Source of the DNA: Bacteriovoracaceae bacterium UBA7317
GTDB lineage: Bacteria; Bdellovibrionota; Bacteriovoracia; Bacteriovoracales; Bacteriovoracaceae
Assembly: GCA_002474345.1 (NCBI GenBank)
Contig: DKQD01000075.1
Span: 1-20,245, forward strand
Reading direction: 5' to 3'
Length of the DNA: 20,245 bases
A program made the translations under genes and the position numbers. The notes under the pieces were generated by a model, which was not told where the DNA came from, searched no databases, and saw only the letters and a list, made by a program, of their open reading frames with translations. The stretch's first letter is position 1; the number at the start of each line of letters is the position of its first letter. Positions 155 through 20,245 of the stretch are shown piece after piece.

Positions 155-2896
155 TTGTTTATTCTTATAAGAACTCTAATAATTTCTATCACTTCTTTTT
201 TCTTTCTTATCTTGGATATCGGTGCAAGGGACACATCAAAAGCTTTGATTTTAACAGATCAGGTTGGTCATTATGATCTATCAAAGAACCTAGATATATT
301 AGAGGACTCTACTGGAAAATTAAGCATAAAAGATATTTTAAAACCCTCCTGGCAAGATAAATTTGAAAAAAGAAGTGGTAAAAAACTAAACTTTGGTTAT
401 TCAAAATCTACTTTTTGGGCCAGGTTAAAACTACAAAATAAATCGATTGATCAAAAGGTTTGGCTTTTATCTCATAATTATTATCTTCAAGACGAAATTG
501 AGGTTTTTAAAAATTTAGGGAAAGGAAAATGGGTTGGTTTTAAAACAGGTGATACGTTTCCCTTCGCTTCGAGAGAAGTGGAAGCAAGGTCTTTTACTTT
601 TAAGATCAAACCCACTATTGAGTCTGTTTACTATGTAAAAATAAAAGGAACGGCCAATCAAATGGACCTCTCTATATCCAGTCCAATTCAATTTGCAAAA
701 AATCAAACCAAGGATAATTATATTTTGGGCCTTTTTTTTGGTCTGGTTCTTTCGATGATTTTTTACAATGCTTTTATCTTTATTTCTACTAAAGAATTAA
801 GTTACCTTTTTTATGTTTTACATGTAGCTTCTTATGGTCTTGGGCTTTCCTTGTATCAAGGTTTCAGTCAACGGTTCCTTTTTCCAAACTTTCCTATAAT
901 GAGTAATAATGGAATTACGGTCTTAATTGGATTAATGGGGTTCTTTCTCTATTTATTTACAATTAAGTTTTTAAAATTAGATGAAGAAATGCCCAAAACA
1001 TATCGTTTCCTAATTTTTTTAAGTATTTTTTGTTTGGCTTTGGTCCCTTCTGCTTTCTTTTTTGATTACTCTTTTAATTTAAAATATCAGTCAATAAATG
1101 GTTTTACTTTCTCAGTTGTGATTCTTGTTATTGGATTTTACAGGGTATTTTATTATAGACCTGCGATCTATTTTTTCATGGCCTTCCTATGCACGTTGAT
1201 AGGTTCAATTGTTATGGGCCTAATGACAACGGGTATTTTACCTTCTATTTTTATAGTAAAACAAGCCCCCATTATAGGGAACGCTTTGGAACTTATTCTT
1301 TTGTCATTAGGTTTAGCAGATAAGTTTAATCTTATGAAAGAGCAGGCATATGAAAAAGAAGCTGAAGCTAAAAAAGTTCTTAAAAACCATGCAGTAAGCC
1401 TCCATAAAAAAGTACTTGAAAAAACCGATGAATTGAAAAAGGAGAAAGATGCTTTAAAAATAGTATTAGAGGAAACCTCCAGACAGAAGAAATCTCGAGA
1501 TCAATTACTTGGAAGTTTGGGGCAAGGTTATCTTACCTTCAACTCCGAAGGTATCATACAAGAAGGAACGACAAAGATAACAGAAAATCTTTTAGAAACT
1601 CATTTGTTAAAGGACTCCCCAGATGGATTAAAAATTTGGGATGTTCTTTTTAAAGATCAACCTGAAAAAAATACAACTTTCAAATCATGGGTTAAAAATG
1701 TTTTTGAAGGAAAAATACAATTTAGAGACCTTAATCAACTAGCACCTAAGATTTTTGAGGGGCAGCATGATAAGTATATTGAACTTGAATTTAGACCAAT
1801 TTTTAATGAGGATGAAAATAAAGGGTTAGAGGTTGATAAGCTAATCCTAATTGCTTCAGATAAAACTAATGAGCTAGAACTAAAGAAGCAGTTAGAAATC
1901 GATAAAGAAAAAACAGATTTTGTTACTTCCTGCTTGGGAAGTCCTGCGGAATTCGTTGATTTACTAGATGATACTTATCAATTTTTAGATTCCTATTATG
2001 AAGGGAGAGAGAATAAACCAGAAACTCTTTTCAGAACTTTTCATACTTTCAAAGCGAGATATTCTCAATATGGACTTAGGAGTATTACTCATTTATTAAA
2101 TACTATTGAGACCACTATATCTGAAAATAATTTAGACCCTTTAGAAAGTGAGGTAAAAAAGTTTGAATTTCAGTTGAAAAGTTTTTTAAAGGAAAACAGG
2201 TTAATAGTGGAAGCTGCTAACCGTTTTTTGGCTGATGAAGGGAGTACTGTTCAAATTTCTGATATCATTAACAATACAGAGGGCTATAAGATAGATAAGA
2301 ATTATATGAATTTATTAATGAAAAATTATCTTTTGACTGATATTAAGAAAAAGTTCGAAAAGTACCGACCTTTAATCTTTGAACTAGCCTCAAAACAAGG
2401 GAAAAAGGTAGACCTTCATATTTATGGAGATGAAATTAAAGTGGATGAAAAGAAGTATTCTGACTTTATTAAAAACACCATACATCTTTTTAGAAATATG
2501 GTCGACCATGGTATTGAACCTGAAAAAGAAAGAATTAACTTAACAAAAGATGAAGTAGGTAAAATTGAAATAGACTTTCGTTTAAAGAGTGATTCTTTTA
2601 TTGTTAAATTCTTTGATGATGGTTCTGGAATCAATCCTGAAAGTATTAAAGGTAAGTTAATAGAAAAAGGTCTCAAGAGAGAAGAAGATCTTGAAGATAT
2701 AAATCAACAATCACTTGTAGAAATGATTTTTATGCCTGGCTTTAGTACAAAAGAGGAGTTAACAGATGTTTCCGGTAGAGGAGTTGGTTTAGATGCAGTA
2801 AAAACAGAAGTAGAAAAACTTGGAGGGTCTATTTCTGTTCATTCCAGAGTTGGTGAAGGAACACTTTTTGTTATAGAATTGCCTCTTCTAAATTAA
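155..2896 (+). CDS. 7TMR-DISM membrane histidine kinase with HPt and CheA-like ATPase
   Basis: Predicted inner-membrane sensor kinase of 913 aa. Order: N-terminal signal/anchor (1-23); periplasmic 7TMR-DISMED2-type domain (about 50-180, with FWARLKLQN at 87-95 and WLLSHNYYLQDEI at 103-115); seven-helix 7TM-DISM region (about 188-390); coiled coil (about 392-450); PAS-like region (about 455-590); HPt helix with FHTFKARYSQYG (phosphoacceptor H630); and a CheA-type HATPase with N box HLFRNMVDHGIE (777-788), DDGSGI (821-826) and GFSTKEELTDVSGRGVG (862-878). There is no ordinary H-box dimerisation motif, no P2 and no C-terminal CheW-like domain; the protein ends right after the ATPase. The start is TTG at 155 with GAGG at 146-149; there is no better ATG. 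DISM domains are known to sense small ligands, often carbohydrates, but the signal here is unknown. I infer that H630 is phosphorylated in cis or trans and then feeds a stand-alone receiver. It is paralogous to the truncated kinase at 18896-20245. Confidence 0.85.
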   Translation: MFILIRTLIISITSFFFLILDIGARDTSKALILTDQVGHYDLSKNLDILEDSTGKLSIKDILKPSWQDKFEKRSGKKLNFGYSKSTFWARLKLQNKSIDQKVWLLSHNYYLQDEIEVFKNLGKGKWVGFKTGDTFPFASREVEARSFTFKIKPTIESVYYVKIKGTANQMDLSISSPIQFAKNQTKDNYILGLFFGLVLSMIFYNAFIFISTKELSYLFYVLHVASYGLGLSLYQGFSQRFLFPNFPIMSNNGITVLIGLMGFFLYLFTIKFLKLDEEMPKTYRFLIFLSIFCLALVPSAFFFDYSFNLKYQSINGFTFSVVILVIGFYRVFYYRPAIYFFMAFLCTLIGSIVMGLMTTGILPSIFIVKQAPIIGNALELILLSLGLADKFNLMKEQAYEKEAEAKKVLKNHAVSLHKKVLEKTDELKKEKDALKIVLEETSRQKKSRDQLLGSLGQGYLTFNSEGIIQEGTTKITENLLETHLLKDSPDGLKIWDVLFKDQPEKNTTFKSWVKNVFEGKIQFRDLNQLAPKIFEGQHDKYIELEFRPIFNEDENKGLEVDKLILIASDKTNELELKKQLEIDKEKTDFVTSCLGSPAEFVDLLDDTYQFLDSYYEGRENKPETLFRTFHTFKARYSQYGLRSITHLLNTIETTISENNLDPLESEVKKFEFQLKSFLKENRLIVEAANRFLADEGSTVQISDIINNTEGYKIDKNYMNLLMKNYLLTDIKKKFEKYRPLIFELASKQGKKVDLHIYGDEIKVDEKKYSDFIKNTIHLFRNMVDHGIEPEKERINLTKDEVGKIEIDFRLKSDSFIVKFFDDGSGINPESIKGKLIEKGLKREEDLEDINQQSLVEMIFMPGFSTKEELTDVSGRGVGLDAVKTEVEKLGGSISVHSRVGEGTLFVIELPLLN

Positions 2897-2999: not shown

Positions 3000-4784
3000 T
3001 TATTTTGTTATTTGCTTGACCCATGATCTCTTAACCATTCTGTCAAGTCTGGCCCTCTCATTTTTTTTGTACTTTTTCATATCACAGGCGATAGATTTTT
3101 TAAAGACTGGTTTACCAATGACCTCTGCTCTTACAAAGTCATCTTTGAAAACCTTTTGACAGAGAGAATTTGTAATTTTATGACCATGAATAAGAACATT
3201 AAGCTCTCTTGAGTTATACCATGATTGTTCATCCCAATTGGCAGACCCTACGATTGCAATCTGGTTGTCGGCTGTTAGAAATTTGGTGTGGTTATGGTTG
3301 TAAAATTTTGTTTTTACTCGGCTATCCCATTTTGTGAACCCTTTGCTACCTTTTTTGGCACCACTTAGAGCATTACCTCTTGTCACAAACCAACGAAGAT
3401 TGAAGTTTCCTATGCTCTTTTTTTCTTTCCTTAAGCAATTGATATCTCTCAAAAGATGCCTAACGGCTTTTTCATTTTCACCAGCTTCCTGCGCCCACCA
3501 GTTGTAATTTTGATAATCTTTTGAGAGCAGAAAGTTAACATCAATTCCTCTTTTTACAGCAAAGAAAATTTCATCCATCAGGTCAAAAGAGTTAAGGTTT
3601 GGTGAATTAATATTAACATGATTTTTAGCATGCCTGAGGGCACCTACAAAGGCTGCATTTTGAGCATTTATGGAGTTTTTGACGATTCTTTTTGCACCAA
3701 AAGCATCTCTTCCTACAATAGCCAACGTGACCTCTTCTTTAGACCATCCTAACCAGCGCGGTGGCTTATATCCAACAGGGTATTCTTCTAATTTTGCATT
3801 TCCTTGGTATTGAGTTTCCTTAAACCTGGGGACTGGAGGAAATTTTTTGGGAACAATTTTTGGGGCAGATGAAATACTAACAGATCCGAACGGTTTCCCA
3901 TCCCATTTGTATTCTTTATCAGCTTTAACATTACCATTATATTGAGTTGTCTTTCCATCACTACCATTATTTTTTAACCAGAGGTTATAAAACTCATCGG
4001 CAAGAGATAGGGCCGCTTTTCCGTAAATTAAGAATGCGTGATCAACCATGAGCTCACGGTCCCCTGGTTTTTTTTCATCTGTAAAGTGATAGTTAACAAT
4101 GTTAGATCCTGTTACAGCAGCAATTTTTCGATCAACGATAATACCTTTTCCATGGTTGACTGCCATCGCGTTTTTATGTCTATGGGCCTTAAGCTCAAGC
4201 CTTACGAACTTTGGGTCTAATTTCATGGGGAAACCTATCTGGTAATCACCACTATCTTTTCCTTGACTAAAAAGTGTACCCGCTCGACGACCATGAAATT
4301 TAACTTTAGTCATTAACTCAAAAAGGTTAAGTCCTTTTACACTTCCTATAATATCCCAAACAATTCTCACGGTAACAGGTTTTGTAGCACCTTCCTTTTT
4401 TCTTTTTTCATGAAGAAGAGCAACAGCTTCTTTAATTTTTCTTGCGCCTGGAGAGTTTATGTCAAAAAGCATTCCCTCAATAAGGACTTCGTGCTCTGCC
4501 ATTTGAATAAGCTCCGCATATAAATCATAAATTTCATAGCCATTTCTATAAACTTGATTAGACACATAACCTTTCGTCCATAGATGCTTAGGGGTTGTCG
4601 TTAAATTTTTTCCTGGAACGCTTGAAATTGTTCTTTTTATTTGCATAATAAGGGGGTTTAAACCGTTACCTCTTTTATAGAAGTCTTTAGTGCAAAGCTC
4701 AGCTACATTTTGAGCAAAAGTAATTTGGGTCATGCTGAGAATAAAATAAAAACTTGGTAGCATTACTTTTAGAATCCGATTCAT
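3000..4784 (-). CDS. Secreted phospholipase D-like protein with two intact HKD motifs
   Basis: 594-aa member of the phospholipase D/cardiolipin-synthase superfamily. A Sec signal peptide occupies about residues 1-24, with likely cleavage after TFA, so it should act in the periplasm or outside the cell. Two catalytic motifs are complete: HGKGIIVDRKIAAVTGSN (H211 to N228) and HTKFLTADNQIAIVGSAN (H499 to N516). This is the pair of half-sites that forms one PLD active site. Family reactions include phosphodiester hydrolysis or transphosphatidylation of phospholipids, and some members are nucleases; the substrate cannot be read from sequence. I chose ATG at 4784 because AAGGA at 4794-4798 lies 9 nt upstream; the TTG three codons earlier directly abuts that site. 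The gene is transcribed alone. It lies downstream of the transglutaminase-like gene on the same strand, but a hairpin separates them. In a predator it could act on prey membranes, which is inference. Confidence 0.85.
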   Translation of the reverse strand: MNRILKVMLPSFYFILSMTQITFAQNVAELCTKDFYKRGNGLNPLIMQIKRTISSVPGKNLTTTPKHLWTKGYVSNQVYRNGYEIYDLYAELIQMAEHEVLIEGMLFDINSPGARKIKEAVALLHEKRKKEGATKPVTVRIVWDIIGSVKGLNLFELMTKVKFHGRRAGTLFSQGKDSGDYQIGFPMKLDPKFVRLELKAHRHKNAMAVNHGKGIIVDRKIAAVTGSNIVNYHFTDEKKPGDRELMVDHAFLIYGKAALSLADEFYNLWLKNNGSDGKTTQYNGNVKADKEYKWDGKPFGSVSISSAPKIVPKKFPPVPRFKETQYQGNAKLEEYPVGYKPPRWLGWSKEEVTLAIVGRDAFGAKRIVKNSINAQNAAFVGALRHAKNHVNINSPNLNSFDLMDEIFFAVKRGIDVNFLLSKDYQNYNWWAQEAGENEKAVRHLLRDINCLRKEKKSIGNFNLRWFVTRGNALSGAKKGSKGFTKWDSRVKTKFYNHNHTKFLTADNQIAIVGSANWDEQSWYNSRELNVLIHGHKITNSLCQKVFKDDFVRAEVIGKPVFKKSIACDMKKYKKNERARLDRMVKRSWVKQITK

Positions 4785-4793
4785 TTTAGTCAA

Positions 4794-4798: not shown

Positions 4799-4925
4799 TG
4801 TTTAAAAAAATAACTTAACTATTTGGGATTTATTAATTCTAATCGGTTTATAAGCTTAAAGTTAAAGATTATTTTCTTAAAAAATGTTTACTTGAGAGAA
4901 AAAGTCTTTTTTTGCGTTGTGTGGG

Positions 4926-4962
4926 AATTAAAGGTTCCGGTATAATGTCGGAACCTTTAATT
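4926..4962 (-). terminator. Hairpin terminator after the transglutaminase-like gene
   Basis: A 14-bp inverted repeat (4926-4939 with 4949-4962) containing AAAGGTTCCG/CGGAACCTTT has a 9-nt loop and starts 23 nt past the stop at 4986. The T-tract on the minus strand is weak (the arm itself ends CTTTAATT), so termination is likely but not textbook. Confidence 0.55.
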
Positions 4963-4985
4963 TAGTTTTGGTTAGGTTTGATTAT

Positions 4986-7397
4986 TTAATTTGATGATGC
5001 AACTCTTAATCTATTCCTTGCATCCCTTAGTTCATCTTCGAGCTTTTCCATTTTATTCTGTTCTGATTTTAAATCCTTTGACTTAATTTTTTGATCAGCT
5101 AAAGCCAATTTATAGAGCTTTTTAAGGTTTTTATAATTTCTATTAAAAATACTTCCTCTAAGCTTTTTATATTCTTTGTATGCTTTATCGGTTTTTTTCT
5201 TAGCCTGATCAAAATTTGTTTGATGTTTTTTTACAATTTCCTTTTGATTTACTAATTTTACCTTAAGGTTTTTTATAAGGTCTTTGGTAATACCTATATT
5301 TTTCGCCTTTTCAAATTTTGCTAATTCCTTTTTAAAAGCCGCCATTTCTTTTTTGAATTTTTCCTTTTTTACAGCAAACTTCTTCATTTGGGCTTTTAAA
5401 TCTTCTTTTTGTTTTAAAATTTTTGACTTTTCTTTGTTTTGCTTTTCTTTAAACCTTATTTTCATTTGAGAAAATTTATCTTGTGCCTTTTTTAATTCTT
5501 CTTTTTTCTTGAATAAAGCTTTTTCTTGTCCTTCCTTATAGGTGCTAAAAGCTTTTTGCCTACTTTTTAAGGCTTTTTCCTCTTTTACGAGATTTTCTTT
5601 TTTAATTTCTAAATCAGTAACCTTCTTATTTAATGATGCTTCTTTTTCTTTTATTTGCTTTTTTAGATTTTCCTTTTCAATTTCCAGGTTTTTTGTCAGG
5701 TCTTCTCTTTCCTTTAATTCTTTTTTTAGATTCTTTTTTTCATCTTCTAGAATTTTATTTAAATCTTCTATTTCCTGTTCAAATCTTTTTGTAAGCTCTT
5801 CCTTTTCTTTCTCTATTAACTTTTTCCTGTCTTCTATTTTTTTAAACTCAGCTTCTAGTCTTTTGGTTTCTTCTTCATTTTCTCTTTTCGCTTTTTCTTT
5901 CTCTTCTTCAAAATTTTTAATACGCTCTTCTAATTCCTTCCTTTCTTTTTCAATTCTACTTTTTTCTTCCAATGATAAAGATGAAGAAATCTTCTTTTTA
6001 TAAGATGTTGATTTCTTGTAAATTTTGCCAAGGTCTTCAAAAATGCCTTTAAATTCCGAAAGCCCATTTTTCCAAATAAAGTCTGGTCGATCCATTGTAA
6101 TCCATTCACCGCCGATTATTTTATCATCTTTATCAAGTTCAAGTTTATAACGATAAGTCTTCGTTGTGATTTGATTAGGAGGTGAAACCTTATTCCAGTT
6201 GTGATGTATTTCAACAACATAGTGCATTTTAGTTTCAACAACAACTTCTTTTACTGTACCTTCAGCAGAACCTTCAGATGGTTCTTTTGTTTCAATCTCT
6301 TTTACATCGAAGCCTTGAACTGCTTGGTTCCATACTTCGGAATCCCTTGTAACATCAACAATAAAACTTTCATCCATGTTAGCAATTTGGTTTGCGATGA
6401 CTATATGAAAAGCACCCGCATTTGTATCTTTACATTCATCACGGTTCATTTTGCCTTCGAGTTCTGAGGCCATTGTCAGTTTTTTCTGAATCATCTCTTT
6501 TATGAAGGTTTTATTCTCAAAGTTAAGGTTTTCCTCTTTAAGAACTTGATTTAACTTTTCAACATCCTCTTTATCATTTGTGAGTTTGTTAAAAATTTCC
6601 ATAACGACTTTTTTCTTTTCCCAATTGAAACTTAACTCCGACTCATCATTTAAGGACAGCTCGTCAATAAGGGTTTTTTTGTATCCTTTTAGTTTTTCAA
6701 TAAGGATGCTGACCTTATTGTCATAAGTTGGGTTACTTTCTAGGTCTTTATATATTTTTCCAAAGTCAATATTACAGCGACTTCCTAAAAAACGGGTCCT
6801 TGGCGCCTTTGCCAAGTGAAGGTGATAAGTAAGGAGTGCCTTAATGTCAGAAGAACCAAATTCTATTTTATGTCCCTTTTTCCCAATCATTGTTACCGGC
6901 TCAGGGTTACTGTAAAGGATAGTGGCCGGTGCCCAAGCATGGCATAGCCCTTCCCATGTTGGAATTTTGAAGTCTTTTTCATAAGACTCATGTCCTTCTA
7001 TTGTTTTTAAAATATTTGTTCTTTTTCTTTCATAATTTGTAAGTGGAAACTCTGATCTTCCTAGGTATATATCGTATTTCTCTGCAGGAGATAGTTTTTT
7101 TATGTCCTCTTCTTTTAAGTCCTTAAAGTCTTTTGCAACTTCATAAGAAAATCTTTTTTCCTCTTCTAAGTCTTTATCATTCCACCTATAAGTTATGCCC
7201 CCCTTATAAGTAGGCCAATAATCTCCACTCCACGGCATTTCTGTTAATTTTCCCGTTTTAGGAAGTTTTGAATAGGTTGTTTCATAGTCCCATTCGAAGT
7301 TTTCTGGATCATTTTTTTGATCCCATGCGCTAAAAGAGAATGTAGGCCCAGATAAAAGAACAGAAGTTGTAAGGAAAAAGGTTGATAACTTATTCAT
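4986..7397 (-). CDS. Secreted GP42-type transglutaminase-elicitor protein with long coiled-coil tail
   Basis: 803-aa exported protein. A signal peptide covers about residues 1-24. Residues about 45-460 resemble the transglutaminase-elicitor family of Phytophthora GP42. GLCHAWA at 150-156 offers nucleophile C152 in papain-like context. GAFHIVIANQ at 328-337 offers H331, and FIVDVT at 345-350 a candidate Asp. VWNQAVQGFDVKE at 355-367 matches the Pep-13 elicitor VWNQPVRGFKVYE at 9 of 13 positions. GP42 is a Ca2+-dependent transglutaminase with a Mac-1/papain-like core, with homologues reported from marine Vibrio; assigning that activity here is inference. Residues about 476-800 are Lys/Glu-rich heptad-like coiled coil and lack hydrophobic membrane segments. 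ATG at 7397 is preceded by AAGGAG with a 5-nt spacer. The gene stands alone between a 586-base non-coding stretch and a hairpin. Alternative reading: a papain-fold protease with similar motifs. Confidence 0.72.
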   Translation of the reverse strand: MNKLSTFFLTTSVLLSGPTFSFSAWDQKNDPENFEWDYETTYSKLPKTGKLTEMPWSGDYWPTYKGGITYRWNDKDLEEEKRFSYEVAKDFKDLKEEDIKKLSPAEKYDIYLGRSEFPLTNYERKRTNILKTIEGHESYEKDFKIPTWEGLCHAWAPATILYSNPEPVTMIGKKGHKIEFGSSDIKALLTYHLHLAKAPRTRFLGSRCNIDFGKIYKDLESNPTYDNKVSILIEKLKGYKKTLIDELSLNDESELSFNWEKKKVVMEIFNKLTNDKEDVEKLNQVLKEENLNFENKTFIKEMIQKKLTMASELEGKMNRDECKDTNAGAFHIVIANQIANMDESFIVDVTRDSEVWNQAVQGFDVKEIETKEPSEGSAEGTVKEVVVETKMHYVVEIHHNWNKVSPPNQITTKTYRYKLELDKDDKIIGGEWITMDRPDFIWKNGLSEFKGIFEDLGKIYKKSTSYKKKISSSLSLEEKSRIEKERKELEERIKNFEEEKEKAKRENEEETKRLEAEFKKIEDRKKLIEKEKEELTKRFEQEIEDLNKILEDEKKNLKKELKEREDLTKNLEIEKENLKKQIKEKEASLNKKVTDLEIKKENLVKEEKALKSRQKAFSTYKEGQEKALFKKKEELKKAQDKFSQMKIRFKEKQNKEKSKILKQKEDLKAQMKKFAVKKEKFKKEMAAFKKELAKFEKAKNIGITKDLIKNLKVKLVNQKEIVKKHQTNFDQAKKKTDKAYKEYKKLRGSIFNRNYKNLKKLYKLALADQKIKSKDLKSEQNKMEKLEDELRDARNRLRVASSN
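6297..6335 (-). other. Pep-13-like segment of the transglutaminase domain
   Basis: Encodes VWNQAVQGFDVKE (residues 355-367). Against the oomycete Pep-13 VWNQPVRGFKVYE, the identical positions are V, W, N, Q, V, G, F, V and E. The differences are P to A, R to Q, K to D and Y to K. The Trp, reported as essential in GP42, is kept; the Pro, also reported as important, is Ala here. Confidence 0.75.
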
Positions 7398-10522: not shown

Positions 10523-10536
10523 TACTATTCATCCAT

Positions 10537-10779
10537 TCAAATTATGTTTTCTTTAATCAAGATATCATTTGCGTAAAAGTAACCAAGTTTGTCTCTAAAA
10601 AAGTTTAATTTAGTTTGTAGTTTATCTGACATCTTAATATTGTTCAAATTAAAAAATTCTTTATGGTCTTTAATTAAATTAAAGAGAACCTCCTTTCTAC
10701 TTTTTTCATGAAAGATATACTTGAAGGGAAAGTCAATGATCGATAAAAAGCAAACATTGTGGAAGATTTTGAACCTCAT
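10537..10779 (-). CDS. Small hypothetical protein, 80 aa (doubtful)
   Basis: An AT-rich ORF of 80 codons lies directly upstream of the MAPEG gene on the same strand with a 14-nt gap. The product is basic and Phe/Ile/Lys-rich, with no recognised domain. No clear Shine-Dalgarno precedes ATG 10779. An internal Met at residue 50 would give a 31-residue version. The composition could simply reflect AT-rich DNA, so it may not be a real gene. Confidence 0.35.
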   Translation of the reverse strand: MRFKIFHNVCFLSIIDFPFKYIFHEKSRKEVLFNLIKDHKEFFNLNNIKMSDKLQTKLNFFRDKLGYFYANDILIKENII

Positions 10780-10987
10780 TTTTTCATGCTAAGCACTTTT
10801 TTATTATTTAAAATATTCAAAGACTTGACGGTAATATGTTACTGTAGGCTTGTGGTGATACAAAGATGTGATTGTAGGAGCTTTATTTTCATCGAAAGAG
10901 CTTAATTAAGTCTATTTTTTGTACCAAAGATTGGGAATGGCCAATGGGTGACGATTTCGATAACGTTTTTAAAATCGCTTCGGAAAG

Positions 10988-11179
10988 TTGTATCAAGAGG
11001 CCATAGACAATGGTTTTAGTGAAATAAGTCGTATTAAAAGTAATGATGGTAGTGATGTTTTTATTTTGTTTGAGAATAAGAAAGGTTACGAAGATTTAGA
11101 GGATAATAAAGTTTTTTATTCCTGGGAGATGAGTGAGGTTGAAGACTTCAAAGAGAATGTCTTGGAAAATAATAAGTAA
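10988..11179 (+). CDS. Small acidic hypothetical protein, probably 5'-truncated by a frameshift
   Basis: 63 codons that are open only from a TTG at 10988. That TTG has GGA just 3 nt upstream, too close to be a good site. The product is acidic (FENKKGYEDLEDNK, EVEDFKENVLENN) and of no known family. In a neighbouring frame an ATG at 10944 opens MGDDFDNVFKIASE and hits TAG at 11004. Joining the frames near 10983-10990 by a single-base change would give one smooth protein of about 78 aa. The true gene may therefore span 10944-11179, either broken, programmed, or carrying a sequencing error. It converges on a receiver gene with a 12-nt gap. Confidence 0.4.
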   Translation: MYQEAIDNGFSEISRIKSNDGSDVFILFENKKGYEDLEDNKVFYSWEMSEVEDFKENVLENNK

Positions 11180-11191
11180 ACCCCTCTAATA

Positions 11192-11612: not shown

Positions 11613-11739
11613 AATACCAATTAAATATATTTTAGAGTTTAAAATTATCATAGAATAAATTTATTGTGTTAAAAAAATCATTTTGGAGTTTTGAAAAATC
11701 TTATAAAATAAATGAACTGTCTATTTCAACGGAAGGGTT

Positions 11740-12003
11740 ATGATAAGAAACGATTTTCAAACATTAAAAGAAAAGTTAAAAAGATTGAGTTTTAAACTAC
11801 CTAGAGAAACGTTCCTCAAAGTTTATGGACTAGAAAAGCATATAGAGGATGGTCCTTGTCCAAAAGATGCAGAGAAGCCCTCTCTAATTCAAATGGAAGA
11901 GAGGATTCAATTCGAGGCTTGGGAAAAAAATAGGGAAATAAGTGAAGAGGAAGCAATGGAGCAATATCGAAAGTTGGTGAAAGAAATAATGCTTAACAAA
12001 TAA
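11740..12003 (+). CDS. Acyl-CoA-binding protein (ACBP) homologue
   Basis: 87-aa protein matching the length and pattern of the ACBP four-helix family, which binds medium- and long-chain acyl-CoA esters in the cytosol. VYGLEKH at 28-34 lines up with the Y28/K32 ligand pair of bovine ACBP (here Y29 and K33). The FEAWEKNREISEEEAMEQY stretch (58-76) lines up with WDAWN...DAMKAY, placing W61 and Y76 (bovine W58 and Y73). The spacing from F58 to Y76 equals bovine W55 to Y73. Bovine K54, which contacts the CoA phosphate, is Q57 here. Start ATG 11740 has GGAAGGG just upstream. ACBP is mainly eukaryotic and patchy in bacteria. An acyl-CoA synthetase and a hotdog thioesterase lie 2.4-4.6 kb away on the other strand, so a shared acyl-CoA economy is plausible. 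Confidence 0.75.
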   Translation: MIRNDFQTLKEKLKRLSFKLPRETFLKVYGLEKHIEDGPCPKDAEKPSLIQMEERIQFEAWEKNREISEEEAMEQYRKLVKEIMLNK

Positions 12004-12051
12004 GTTATCCATCCAATGTTTAAAATCAAGCTTTTCCTTTATATTGTTTTA

Positions 12052-18890: not shown

Positions 18891-18897
18891 TCCTTCT
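18891..18897 (-). promoter_or_regulatory. Ribosome binding site overlapping the kinase stop codon
   Basis: AGAAGGA on the minus strand shares its first two bases with the kinase TAG (18896-18898) and is 10 nt before the methyltransferase ATG. This supports one transcript for both genes. Confidence 0.65.
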
Positions 18898-20245
18898 AGC
18901 TTAAAACCGGTAATTGAATCATAAAAGTCGTTCCCTCATCAATTTTAGAGGTTACCGAAATGCTCCCACCAAGCCTTTCCACTTCTTCTCTAACAGCATC
19001 CATTCCTACTCCTCGACCTGAGACATCCGTGACTTCTTCCTTCGTTGAAAAACCAGGAAGAAAAATTAAATCAACGATGTCAGATTCTTTTAATTCTTTG
19101 AGGTCTTCTTCAGACTTTAGGCCCGCTTCGGGAACTTTATTTTTTATCCTCTCAGGATCAATTCCACCACCATCGTCTACCATTTGAATCATAAAGGTGT
19201 CGCCGTTATTGTTAAAGTCTACCTTTATACGACCTCTTTGAGGCTTTGTTTTTTCTATTCTCTCTTCTTCAGTTTCAATACCGTGATCGACCATATTTCT
19301 AAAGAGGTGGATGGAGCTATTTATAAAGCTAGAATATTTATTAATGTCAACTTTAATTTCATCACCACCAATACTATGGTCTATACCCTTACCTTGTTTT
19401 TCAGCTAATTCGTTAATTAGATACCTGTACCGATCAAATTTACTTTTAATGTCTTTAAGGTAGCTATTTTCATAAAAATAAGAAAAGGCTTCACCTATTG
19501 CGGGGGCAGGATTTTTTCTATGTTTTGTTTTGAGGCGGCCGAGCACTTTTAAAATTTCTGAGACTTCAACAGCTGTACCGTCATCAATCATAAACTTATT
19601 GGCAGCTTCAATAATAAGTCTGTTCTCTTTTACAAACTCTTCAAGTTCTCTTTTAAAATGATTAACTTTGGAATCTAAGCTATCAAGTTTTTTTTTCGAT
19701 AAAGCCGTTTCTACCTCGTTAAGATAGTAAGTGAGGTCCTTAACTCCAAATTGACCGTAGCGCGCTTTAAGAGTGTGGAAATGTCTAAAAAGACCTCCGT
19801 TTTCATTATTTTTTGTTCTTGGATAATGTTCTAAAAGATCATAGGTGTCATCCATTAAATCAATAAACTCAACAGGATTTTGAAGGCAATTCTTTATGAA
19901 GAAAGCTTGTTGCTTATCTAATTCCAGCTGTTTTTCAAGATTTATTTCTTGGGTTTTATCAGTGGCAATACAAATAACCTTATCAATTTTTCTTTTTGAC
20001 CCTTCAACGTAAATGGGTCTGTAATTTAGGTCTATATGGCGATTGTCTAAGTTAAATGATTGGGGGCCTAACATTTCCAAGTCTTTAAAGGGTAAAATAC
20101 CTCTGTAGACATTTTGAATCCATTTATTGAAGGTGTCAGTTTTTTCTTCATCAAGCTTTAAAACTCTAGAAAGGTTTTTTCCAACGGAGTCTATAGAAAA
20201 GAAGTCTTTCGTAATTTGTGTAGCGCCTTCTAGAATAATGCCTTT
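18896..20245 (-). CDS. HPt/CheA-like histidine kinase, N-terminus beyond window
   Basis: The frame is open to the last base of the window (449 codons visible, first one at 20243-20245), so the Met at 20080 is internal and the gene starts outside. The visible part parallels the C-terminal half of the 155-2896 kinase. It has a PAS-like region (KGIILEGATQITK... at the edge, then IDLNYRPIY), a short linker (INLEKQLELDKQ) and an HPt helix FRHFHTLKARYGQFG with phosphoacceptor His at 19775-19777. The CheA-type ATPase has N box HLFRNMVDHGIE, DDGGGID and GFSTKEEVTDVSGRGVG, and the protein ends LPVLS. There is no CheW-like tail. It is followed by a methyltransferase 15 nt downstream and then a CheY-like receiver. 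Whether it also has a 7TM-DISM sensor cannot be seen. Confidence 0.85.
   Translation of the reverse strand, partial: KGIILEGATQITKDFFSIDSVGKNLSRVLKLDEEKTDTFNKWIQNVYRGILPFKDLEMLGPQSFNLDNRHIDLNYRPIYVEGSKRKIDKVICIATDKTQEINLEKQLELDKQQAFFIKNCLQNPVEFIDLMDDTYDLLEHYPRTKNNENGGLFRHFHTLKARYGQFGVKDLTYYLNEVETALSKKKLDSLDSKVNHFKRELEEFVKENRLIIEAANKFMIDDGTAVEVSEILKVLGRLKTKHRKNPAPAIGEAFSYFYENSYLKDIKSKFDRYRYLINELAEKQGKGIDHSIGGDEIKVDINKYSSFINSSIHLFRNMVDHGIETEEERIEKTKPQRGRIKVDFNNNGDTFMIQMVDDGGGIDPERIKNKVPEAGLKSEEDLKELKESDIVDLIFLPGFSTKEEVTDVSGRGVGMDAVREEVERLGGSISVTSKIDEGTTFMIQLPVLS

Follow-up and report, generated by a model that had tools for sequence, protein, structure and literature searches.

The 20,245-nucleotide stretch analysed here (the window), from the genome of Bacteriovoracaceae bacterium UBA7317, carries on its minus strand a gene for an 803-residue protein that is, with near certainty, a member of the GP42 (PF16683) family of transglutaminases. 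GP42 of Phytophthora is the source of a classic plant-immunity peptide, Pep-13, and the head of the studied protein is homologous to GP42 by sequence and by predicted fold. The gene belongs to a known family; what is new is the long helical tail of its product and the paralogous set, with differing tails, of which it is part. We favour, with moderate confidence, the interpretation that the protein is a GP42-type transglutaminase that is exported, is placed by its tail, and belongs to a set of paralogues. With the wider family in view, three questions can be tested: the origin of the oomycete enzyme (the Myxococcota-rich clan rather than Vibrio on present trees), the reason for the conservation of Pep-13 (near-invariant residues of the enzyme lie in it), and the function, within a single bacterium, of about ten cross-linking-type enzymes whose tails differ.

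The catalytic head and its active site

Searching Pfam-A with the 803-residue protein returned PF16683 (TGase_elicitor) at E 9e-46 and 156.7 bits (cut-off 25), and a phmmer search of PDB sequences gave one strong match, to 3tw5_A (Transglutaminase elicitor; GP42), at E 4.6e-31 in two stretches; the remaining matches have E values of at least 0.077 and lie on the coiled tail. Structure prediction gave the GP42 fold for the head, with lower model confidence in a helical insert. These results bear out the original prediction, made from the sequence alone, of a GP42 homologue in a Bdellovibrionota-type genome, the latter because genome G026 is of the same family as the genome studied here (G000), G303 gives the same matches as G026, and the G303 locus L037 is labelled Bdellovibrionota. 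No NCBIfam model matched the 803-residue protein, and a search of phage sequences with its head gave no match.

Conservation was counted over 471 domains from proteins and genomic loci, with 471 of 474 candidate proteins passing the profile. A frame at a locus was accepted only if it contained the loose motif G-x-C-[HND]-x-[WS], a filter that biases the residue counts towards conserved sites, and for each homologue search the 120 top-ranking proteins are listed. Because the set holds redundant rows (L107 twice; L091/L116; the studied protein/P0001; C210/P0017; C85/P0052; L017/L037), the counts are not independent. The features of the gene, all on the minus strand, are as follows.

4986..7397 (-): whole GP42-type (PF16683) transglutaminase gene, an open reading frame of 803 residues, from Pfam, phmmer against PDB and predicted fold
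7329..7397 (-): putative Sec signal peptide, approximately residues 1-23, called by eye from a Lys, a hydrophobic stretch and small residues preceding AWD
5988..7328 (-): catalytic head with the GP42 fold, approximately residues 24-470
6939..6944 (-): C152-H153, the 'CH' motif described in PMC10318531; C in 471/471 and H in 467/471 domains; 3tw5 alignment
6846..6848 (-): D184, candidate partner on a non-core helix (model helix 161-174); 470/471 domains
6774..6776 (-): C208, putative disulfide partner, from co-occurrence with C322
6498..6746 (-): helical insert of about 80 residues in the head, approximately residues 218-300, from alignments; also in the closest orthologues, P0002-P0004
6432..6434 (-): C322, putative disulfide partner, from co-occurrence with C208
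6405..6407 (-): H331, near-invariant second histidine (model helix 306-319), the catalytic candidate of the original prediction; 469/471 domains
6354..6356 (-): D348, near-invariant acidic residue; 468/471 domains
6297..6335 (-): segment at the Pep-13 position, residues 355-367, in register with GP42, with near-invariant W356 (469/471) and N357 (468/471)
4989..5987 (-): tail, residues 471-803, a Lys/Glu-rich long helix (approximately 476-746) and a second helix (approximately 753-802), from AlphaFold2 and composition

In the phmmer alignment C152 stands opposite a Ser of 3tw5, which we take to be the C290S change, and H331 opposite the histidine of FHI; N336 is present in 468 of the 471 domains. 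PMC10318531 describes the histidine of GP42 as shifted to the position directly after the cysteine, its partner being an Asn located on beta 2 or an Asp located on a non-core helix. N357, at a strand start, and D184, on a helix, fit this wording and would be those residues. On this reading the C152-H331 pair of the original prediction differs from the published Cys-His motif, though H331 is equally conserved.

Two variants deserve mention. The copy from a gammaproteobacterial metagenome-assembled genome (MAG), L091/L116, has Ser for the near-invariant Asn357 and a long branch on the trees. An apparent Cys-Ile in four oomycete-side proteins, found with a first-match pattern, was discarded; the alignment has His there, and the pattern was taken to have hit a chance match elsewhere.

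C208 and C322 occur together in 347 of the domains and are both absent from 123, with a single domain having one alone; the pair is found in none of the 120 listed proteins of the oomycete-query search. We read them as a putative disulfide of the bacterial branches, which would fit a location outside the cytoplasm, in an oxidising compartment.

The Pep-13 segment

Residues 355-367, VWNQAVQGFDVKE, align with Pep-13 in the phmmer alignment to 3tw5_A, and are identical at 9 of 13 positions to the peptide as printed in PMC6770897. A Pep-13-like segment at the Pep-13 position, as originally proposed, is thus present and in register with GP42. The full peptide is not, as position 5 is Ala instead of Pro.

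Pro5 of Pep-13 is reported to be important for elicitation, and the studied protein may reasonably be regarded as a transglutaminase lacking elicitor activity. Across the 471 domains, position 5 is occupied by Pro 384 times, by Ala 67 times, by Gly 18 times, and by Ser twice; among the ten copies of the studied genome it is Ala in five (the studied copy included), Pro in three, and Gly in two. WNQ is present in 117/120, 120/120, and 115/120 of the listed proteins of the three homologue searches. The studied copy is the best match to Pep-13 in its genome, the other nine having 5-7/13 identical residues, and of the 120 homologues listed as nearest to it only four, one of which is its own entry, reach 9/13.

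Closer matches lie elsewhere in the family. Four PPC-domain proteins (by Pfam; P0188, P0210, P0233, and P0234) have 11/13 identity. In three of these the match runs unbroken over the first 11 residues of Pep-13, and on a 92-row tree this trio clusters with a Nannocystis MAG protein (support 99). Among the titled genome loci the best match is 10/13, in eight loci titled Polyangiaceae, Polyangium, Nannocystis, Myxococcales, or Deltaproteobacteria, and the full 13/13 is found only in the oomycete-query set, in 6 of the 120 listed. P0188 and P0210 have a PPC stretch at approximately residues 304-371, after the first PF16683 stretch (54-281), and the PPC unit may sit inside the head.

The simplest reading is that Pep-13 conservation would reflect a constraint on the enzyme, the stretch being conserved because it is proposed to help build the active site; this suggests that the plant-alarm peptide is a piece of the enzyme's working machinery, and plants seeing Pep-13 would be reading an enzyme part. 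Were the segment instead kept for interaction with plant receptors, as an elicitor mimic, the 9/13 identity would be accounted for, but its WN core is common to bacteria, a fungus, and oomycetes, half of the copies in the genome have Ala at position 5, the other copies match Pep-13 at only 5-7 positions, and the studied copy is far from the oomycete proteins on trees. We consider such mimicry extremely unlikely. A 2020 review (PMC7773600) calls Pep-13 apparently unique to Phytophthora, and a 2026 review (PMC13322757) reports it in fungi, so that its fungal presence is already known.

Paralogues, tails and relatives

The studied draft genome (3.83 Mb, 213 contigs, 85.6% complete) encodes nine copies above the PF16683 cut-off and a tenth, C186, just below it (24.9 against 25 bits). 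Copy C16 reaches a contig end, and C143 lacks a start, likewise at a contig end. No 16S match was obtained in this genome. C75a and C75b adjoin at L012:7491-10616, converging with 78 bases between their ends. C186 (L016:7185-8849) is a diverged paralogue in which Cys-Asp replaces Cys-His and Asn stands for Asp348; it keeps VWNQPV and may show which residues the chemistry can spare.

These copies share heads and differ in tails. AlphaFold2 modelled residues 461-803 of the studied protein as helices 476-746 and 753-802 (pLDDT 83.1), and the longer helix, of about 270 residues, would measure about 40 nm if fully extended (0.15 nm per residue). Copy C210 has ankyrin repeats, C85 a Cys-containing tail with a mannan-binding MVL unit, C75a and C143 other Cys-containing tails, and C54 112 residues with no Pfam match; the heads of C210 and C85 are clearly homologous to the studied head, whereas their tails have no match to the studied tail. 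Among the 120 listed homologues of the studied protein 32 have ankyrin, two MVL, one ricin, and one CUB domains, and a search with the studied tail retrieves P0001, which is the protein's own entry, together with P0002-P0004 and nothing else. Of the 16 proteins that follow in head identity (54-61% in local blocks of approximately 190-217 residues), ten have ankyrin and none has a match to the studied tail.

The tail changes faster than the head, with identities to P0002-P0004 of 61, 39, and 41%, compared to 89, 76, and 78% for residues 1-460. Its composition raises the possibility, which we regard as unlikely, of a structural self-crosslinker acting on the envelope or matrix of the cell itself, in which the Lys-rich coiled coil would serve as amine donor and let the protein weld itself into a network, a chemistry that overlaps that of our favoured explanation. 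Residues 461-803 contain 93 Lys (27%, 93/343) and 56 Glu, and the Lys-rich composition is kept in P0002-P0004 (90/358, 75/314, and 79/314) despite the divergence of the tails; but Lys/Glu-rich composition is usual in long coiled coils, and sister copies that are tail-less (C75b and C161) or have binding domains do not suggest one structural role. A protective role for oomycete transglutaminases in cell walls is raised as a possibility in a 2016 review (PMC4915311).

Copies of the family are widespread among bacteria. PF16683 was found in 30 of 59 relatives, with at least 15 and at least 14 distinct open reading frames in G020 and G026, respectively, in 164 of 290 sampled genomes of the studied genome's own phylum, in 45 of 188 genomes of the phylum of Nannocystis exedens, and in 36 of 63 genomes of the gammaproteobacterial family of G622. 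It occurs in only 3 of 369 genomes in the class of the gammaproteobacterial MAG G298, that MAG included, a class to which the family just named belongs; the 14 control genomes had none in each of these surveys. In the order of G298 it occurs in 1 of 60 genomes, G298 itself. The range given in the original prediction, mainly Peronosporales and Vibrio, is not supported as put by these counts. The 2016 review (PMC4915311) likewise gives the relatives of GP42 as those of oomycetes and marine Vibrio, with Vibrio as the donor. The bacterial range of PF16683 is already visible in databases, with all 120 listed homologues labelled PF16683 and a JGI name for P0164, but the open literature searched brought up neither work on PF16683 paralogues from Bdellovibrionota or Myxococcota nor any discussion of that range. 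The presence of about ten such enzymes in one genome suggests that the enzyme family is largely bacterial.

Two further architectures were seen. A Vibrio owensii mobilizable plasmid encodes a PF16683-type protein annotated as a ricin-type beta-trefoil lectin domain protein (L036:3641-5476); this was the single plasmid record found with the head of L017, and its protein as query found only itself. L017/L037 is a Bdellovibrionota protein of approximately 1200 residues whose head closely resembles GP42 (341.8 bits) and which also has five PKD and two PPC stretches.

We built a quick tree of 92 rows hand-picked from the 471, a careful tree of 66 rows (26 of the 92 dropped), and a careful tree of 76 rows with gammaproteobacterial rows added (4 of 14 new rows dropped). 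All three contain the same three sets: the clan of the studied copy and its paralogues; a second set with Vibrio owensii, the gammaproteobacterial family copies (L117-L130), and some Bdellovibrionota; and the Myxococcota-rich clan, which also includes L037 and the eukaryotes. On the quick tree the first set has support of only 88 and shares one side with the second, and the nine copies of the studied genome placed there fall on one side of a branch with support 100. Oomycete proteins and those of the fungus Catenaria anguillulae (P0259, P0310, and P0349) are together on one side of a branch at 100/99 (66 rows) and 100/100 (76 rows). The eukaryotes are either sister to the Myxococcota-rich clan or nested in it, with support of 84/87 and 82/88, respectively, on unrooted trees.

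Joining the eukaryotes with the Vibrio owensii and gammaproteobacterial copies as one clade is rejected by constrained-tree tests: the cost of forcing them together is 149.7 log units (p-AU 4e-85) for V. owensii on the 66-row tree, and 180.6 (p-AU 2.5e-5) for V. owensii plus ten gammaproteobacterial rows on the 76-row tree. The grouping was taken from the title of a 2011 paper and was tested after the quick tree had been seen, with one named sequence (V. owensii) and the gammaproteobacterial rows standing in for the Vibrio sequences of that paper. Because the 2011 claim reportedly rests on other Vibrio sequences, the idea of a Vibrio donor is weakened, not closed. That the studied copy, as a close relative, informs the proposed transfer between bacteria and oomycetes is not supported as put: its place is in another deep clan, and the clan beside the eukaryotes is the Myxococcota-rich one.

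Comparison with P. sojae GP42 (3TW5, PF16683) illustrates these distances. The studied protein is 30 and 31% identical to the P. sojae protein P0343 in two main BLAST blocks and differs in having the C208/C322 pair, Ala for Pro at Pep-13 position 5, the insert of about 80 residues, and the long helical tail. Members of the Myxococcota-rich clan (Nannocystis, Kofleriaceae, and Archangium loci; P0121-P0240) and L037, from an Oligoflexia MAG, share the family and its active-site residues with the studied protein, but form a separate clan beside the eukaryotes, with Pep-13 identity up to 11/13 and PPC domains in 102 of 120 listed proteins; P0233 is 47 and 44% identical to P0343 in two main blocks. 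The plasmid protein L036, with its lectin tail, and L117-L130 are of the same family but differ from the studied copy in belonging to a further clan, the second set above, with some Bdellovibrionota copies.

Proposed function and genomic context

In the mechanism we propose, the Sec signal would export the protein, and outside the cytoplasm a C208-C322 disulfide would staple the head. C152, activated by H153 (or H331) and supported by N357, D184, or D348, would attack a target glutamine side chain, and the glutamine would be passed to a lysine amine, giving an isopeptide cross-link. The tail would do no chemistry and would place the enzyme: the studied tail as a coiled-coil rod or oligomer, those of sister copies through ankyrin repeats or a mannan-binding unit, and those of other family members through ricin or CUB domains. 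The set of enzymes would most likely act on surfaces met by the cell, whether of prey, of neighbours, or of its own envelope. We regard the predicted transamidase activity as likely; the predicted role on the surfaces of other cells is tentative.

Several points weigh against this interpretation. The literature searched yielded no activity data for any bacterial member, and a papain-like site could equally hydrolyse or deamidate; a papain-like amidase, deamidase, or protease that hydrolyses glutamine side chains or peptide bonds with no cross-linking is in our view improbable. H153 is lost in four of the 471 domains, H331 in two, N357 in three (two of which are one locus), and D348 in three, and because some domains do without them the listed residues are not all absolutely required. 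The protein is probably exported, but the Sec signal was called by eye. The tail model has a pTM of 0.33 and was built from four sequences; C75b and C161 have 0 residues beyond the domain, so that a tail is not always needed. Finally, of 704 head pairs at least 50% identical 242 have a tail match, a count in which the head pairs are redundant and the low-complexity filter was on, and may therefore hide coiled-coil kinship.

One domain in many copies with differing partners, and genomes with many copies, also recall polymorphic-toxin-like effectors with a variable part and an immunity protein. In polymorphic toxins, though, the variable end is the toxin, whereas here the enzyme sits at the N-terminal end, which is constant, and the variable end resembles binding or spacer modules. 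The neighbour retained in a congener encodes no small partner but a PLD-family protein that, judged by eye, appears to have a signal sequence of its own, although no search was aimed at immunity genes. We judge this alternative very unlikely.

Extending the transglutaminase interpretation further, GP42-type enzymes might be mainly a bacterial arsenal, in which Bdellovibrionota paralogues with target-choosing tails (coiled-coil rod, ankyrin, mannan-binding, and lectin) would weld surface proteins of prey or neighbours. The oomycete and Catenaria enzymes would be one descendant branch related to the Myxococcota-rich clan and not to Vibrio, and Pep-13 an active-site strip nearly unchanged (11/13) in some bacteria. 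The phylum is known for its predators. In its entirety this picture is doubtful; if true, plant Pep-13 receptors might sense bacteria too.

Two features lie immediately downstream of the transglutaminase gene.

3000..4793 (-): PLD-superfamily gene (Pfam), kept beside the orthologue in a congener
4925..4963: inverted repeat between the transglutaminase and PLD genes, 18 pairs with a loop of 3, listed as terminator-like on the plus strand

In the congener G001 (L131) the orthologue is 818 residues long and 74% identical, with ambiguous bases; both the PLD-family neighbour (90%) and, on its far side, the sensor kinase (80%) are retained there. An operon of the two genes is unsupported, as 192 intergenic bases with the inverted repeat separate them, though the terminator scan found no more sites than in shuffled sequence (3, compared with an average of 3.7 after shuffling) and lists the repeat on the plus strand. 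Because of this repeat the link to the PLD gene may be one of position only.

Elsewhere in the window 10523-11191 and 11621-12051 are gaps without an open reading frame of at least 100 residues. A 7TMR-DISM sensor kinase is encoded at 155-2896 (plus strand) and a related HATPase_c protein, cut at the end of the stretch, at 18896-20245 (minus strand); the L131 orthologue of the former matches the latter at 49%. There is also an HPt-like stretch, called by eye, and between these two genes lie three response regulators that stand alone (7924, 11192, and 17477).
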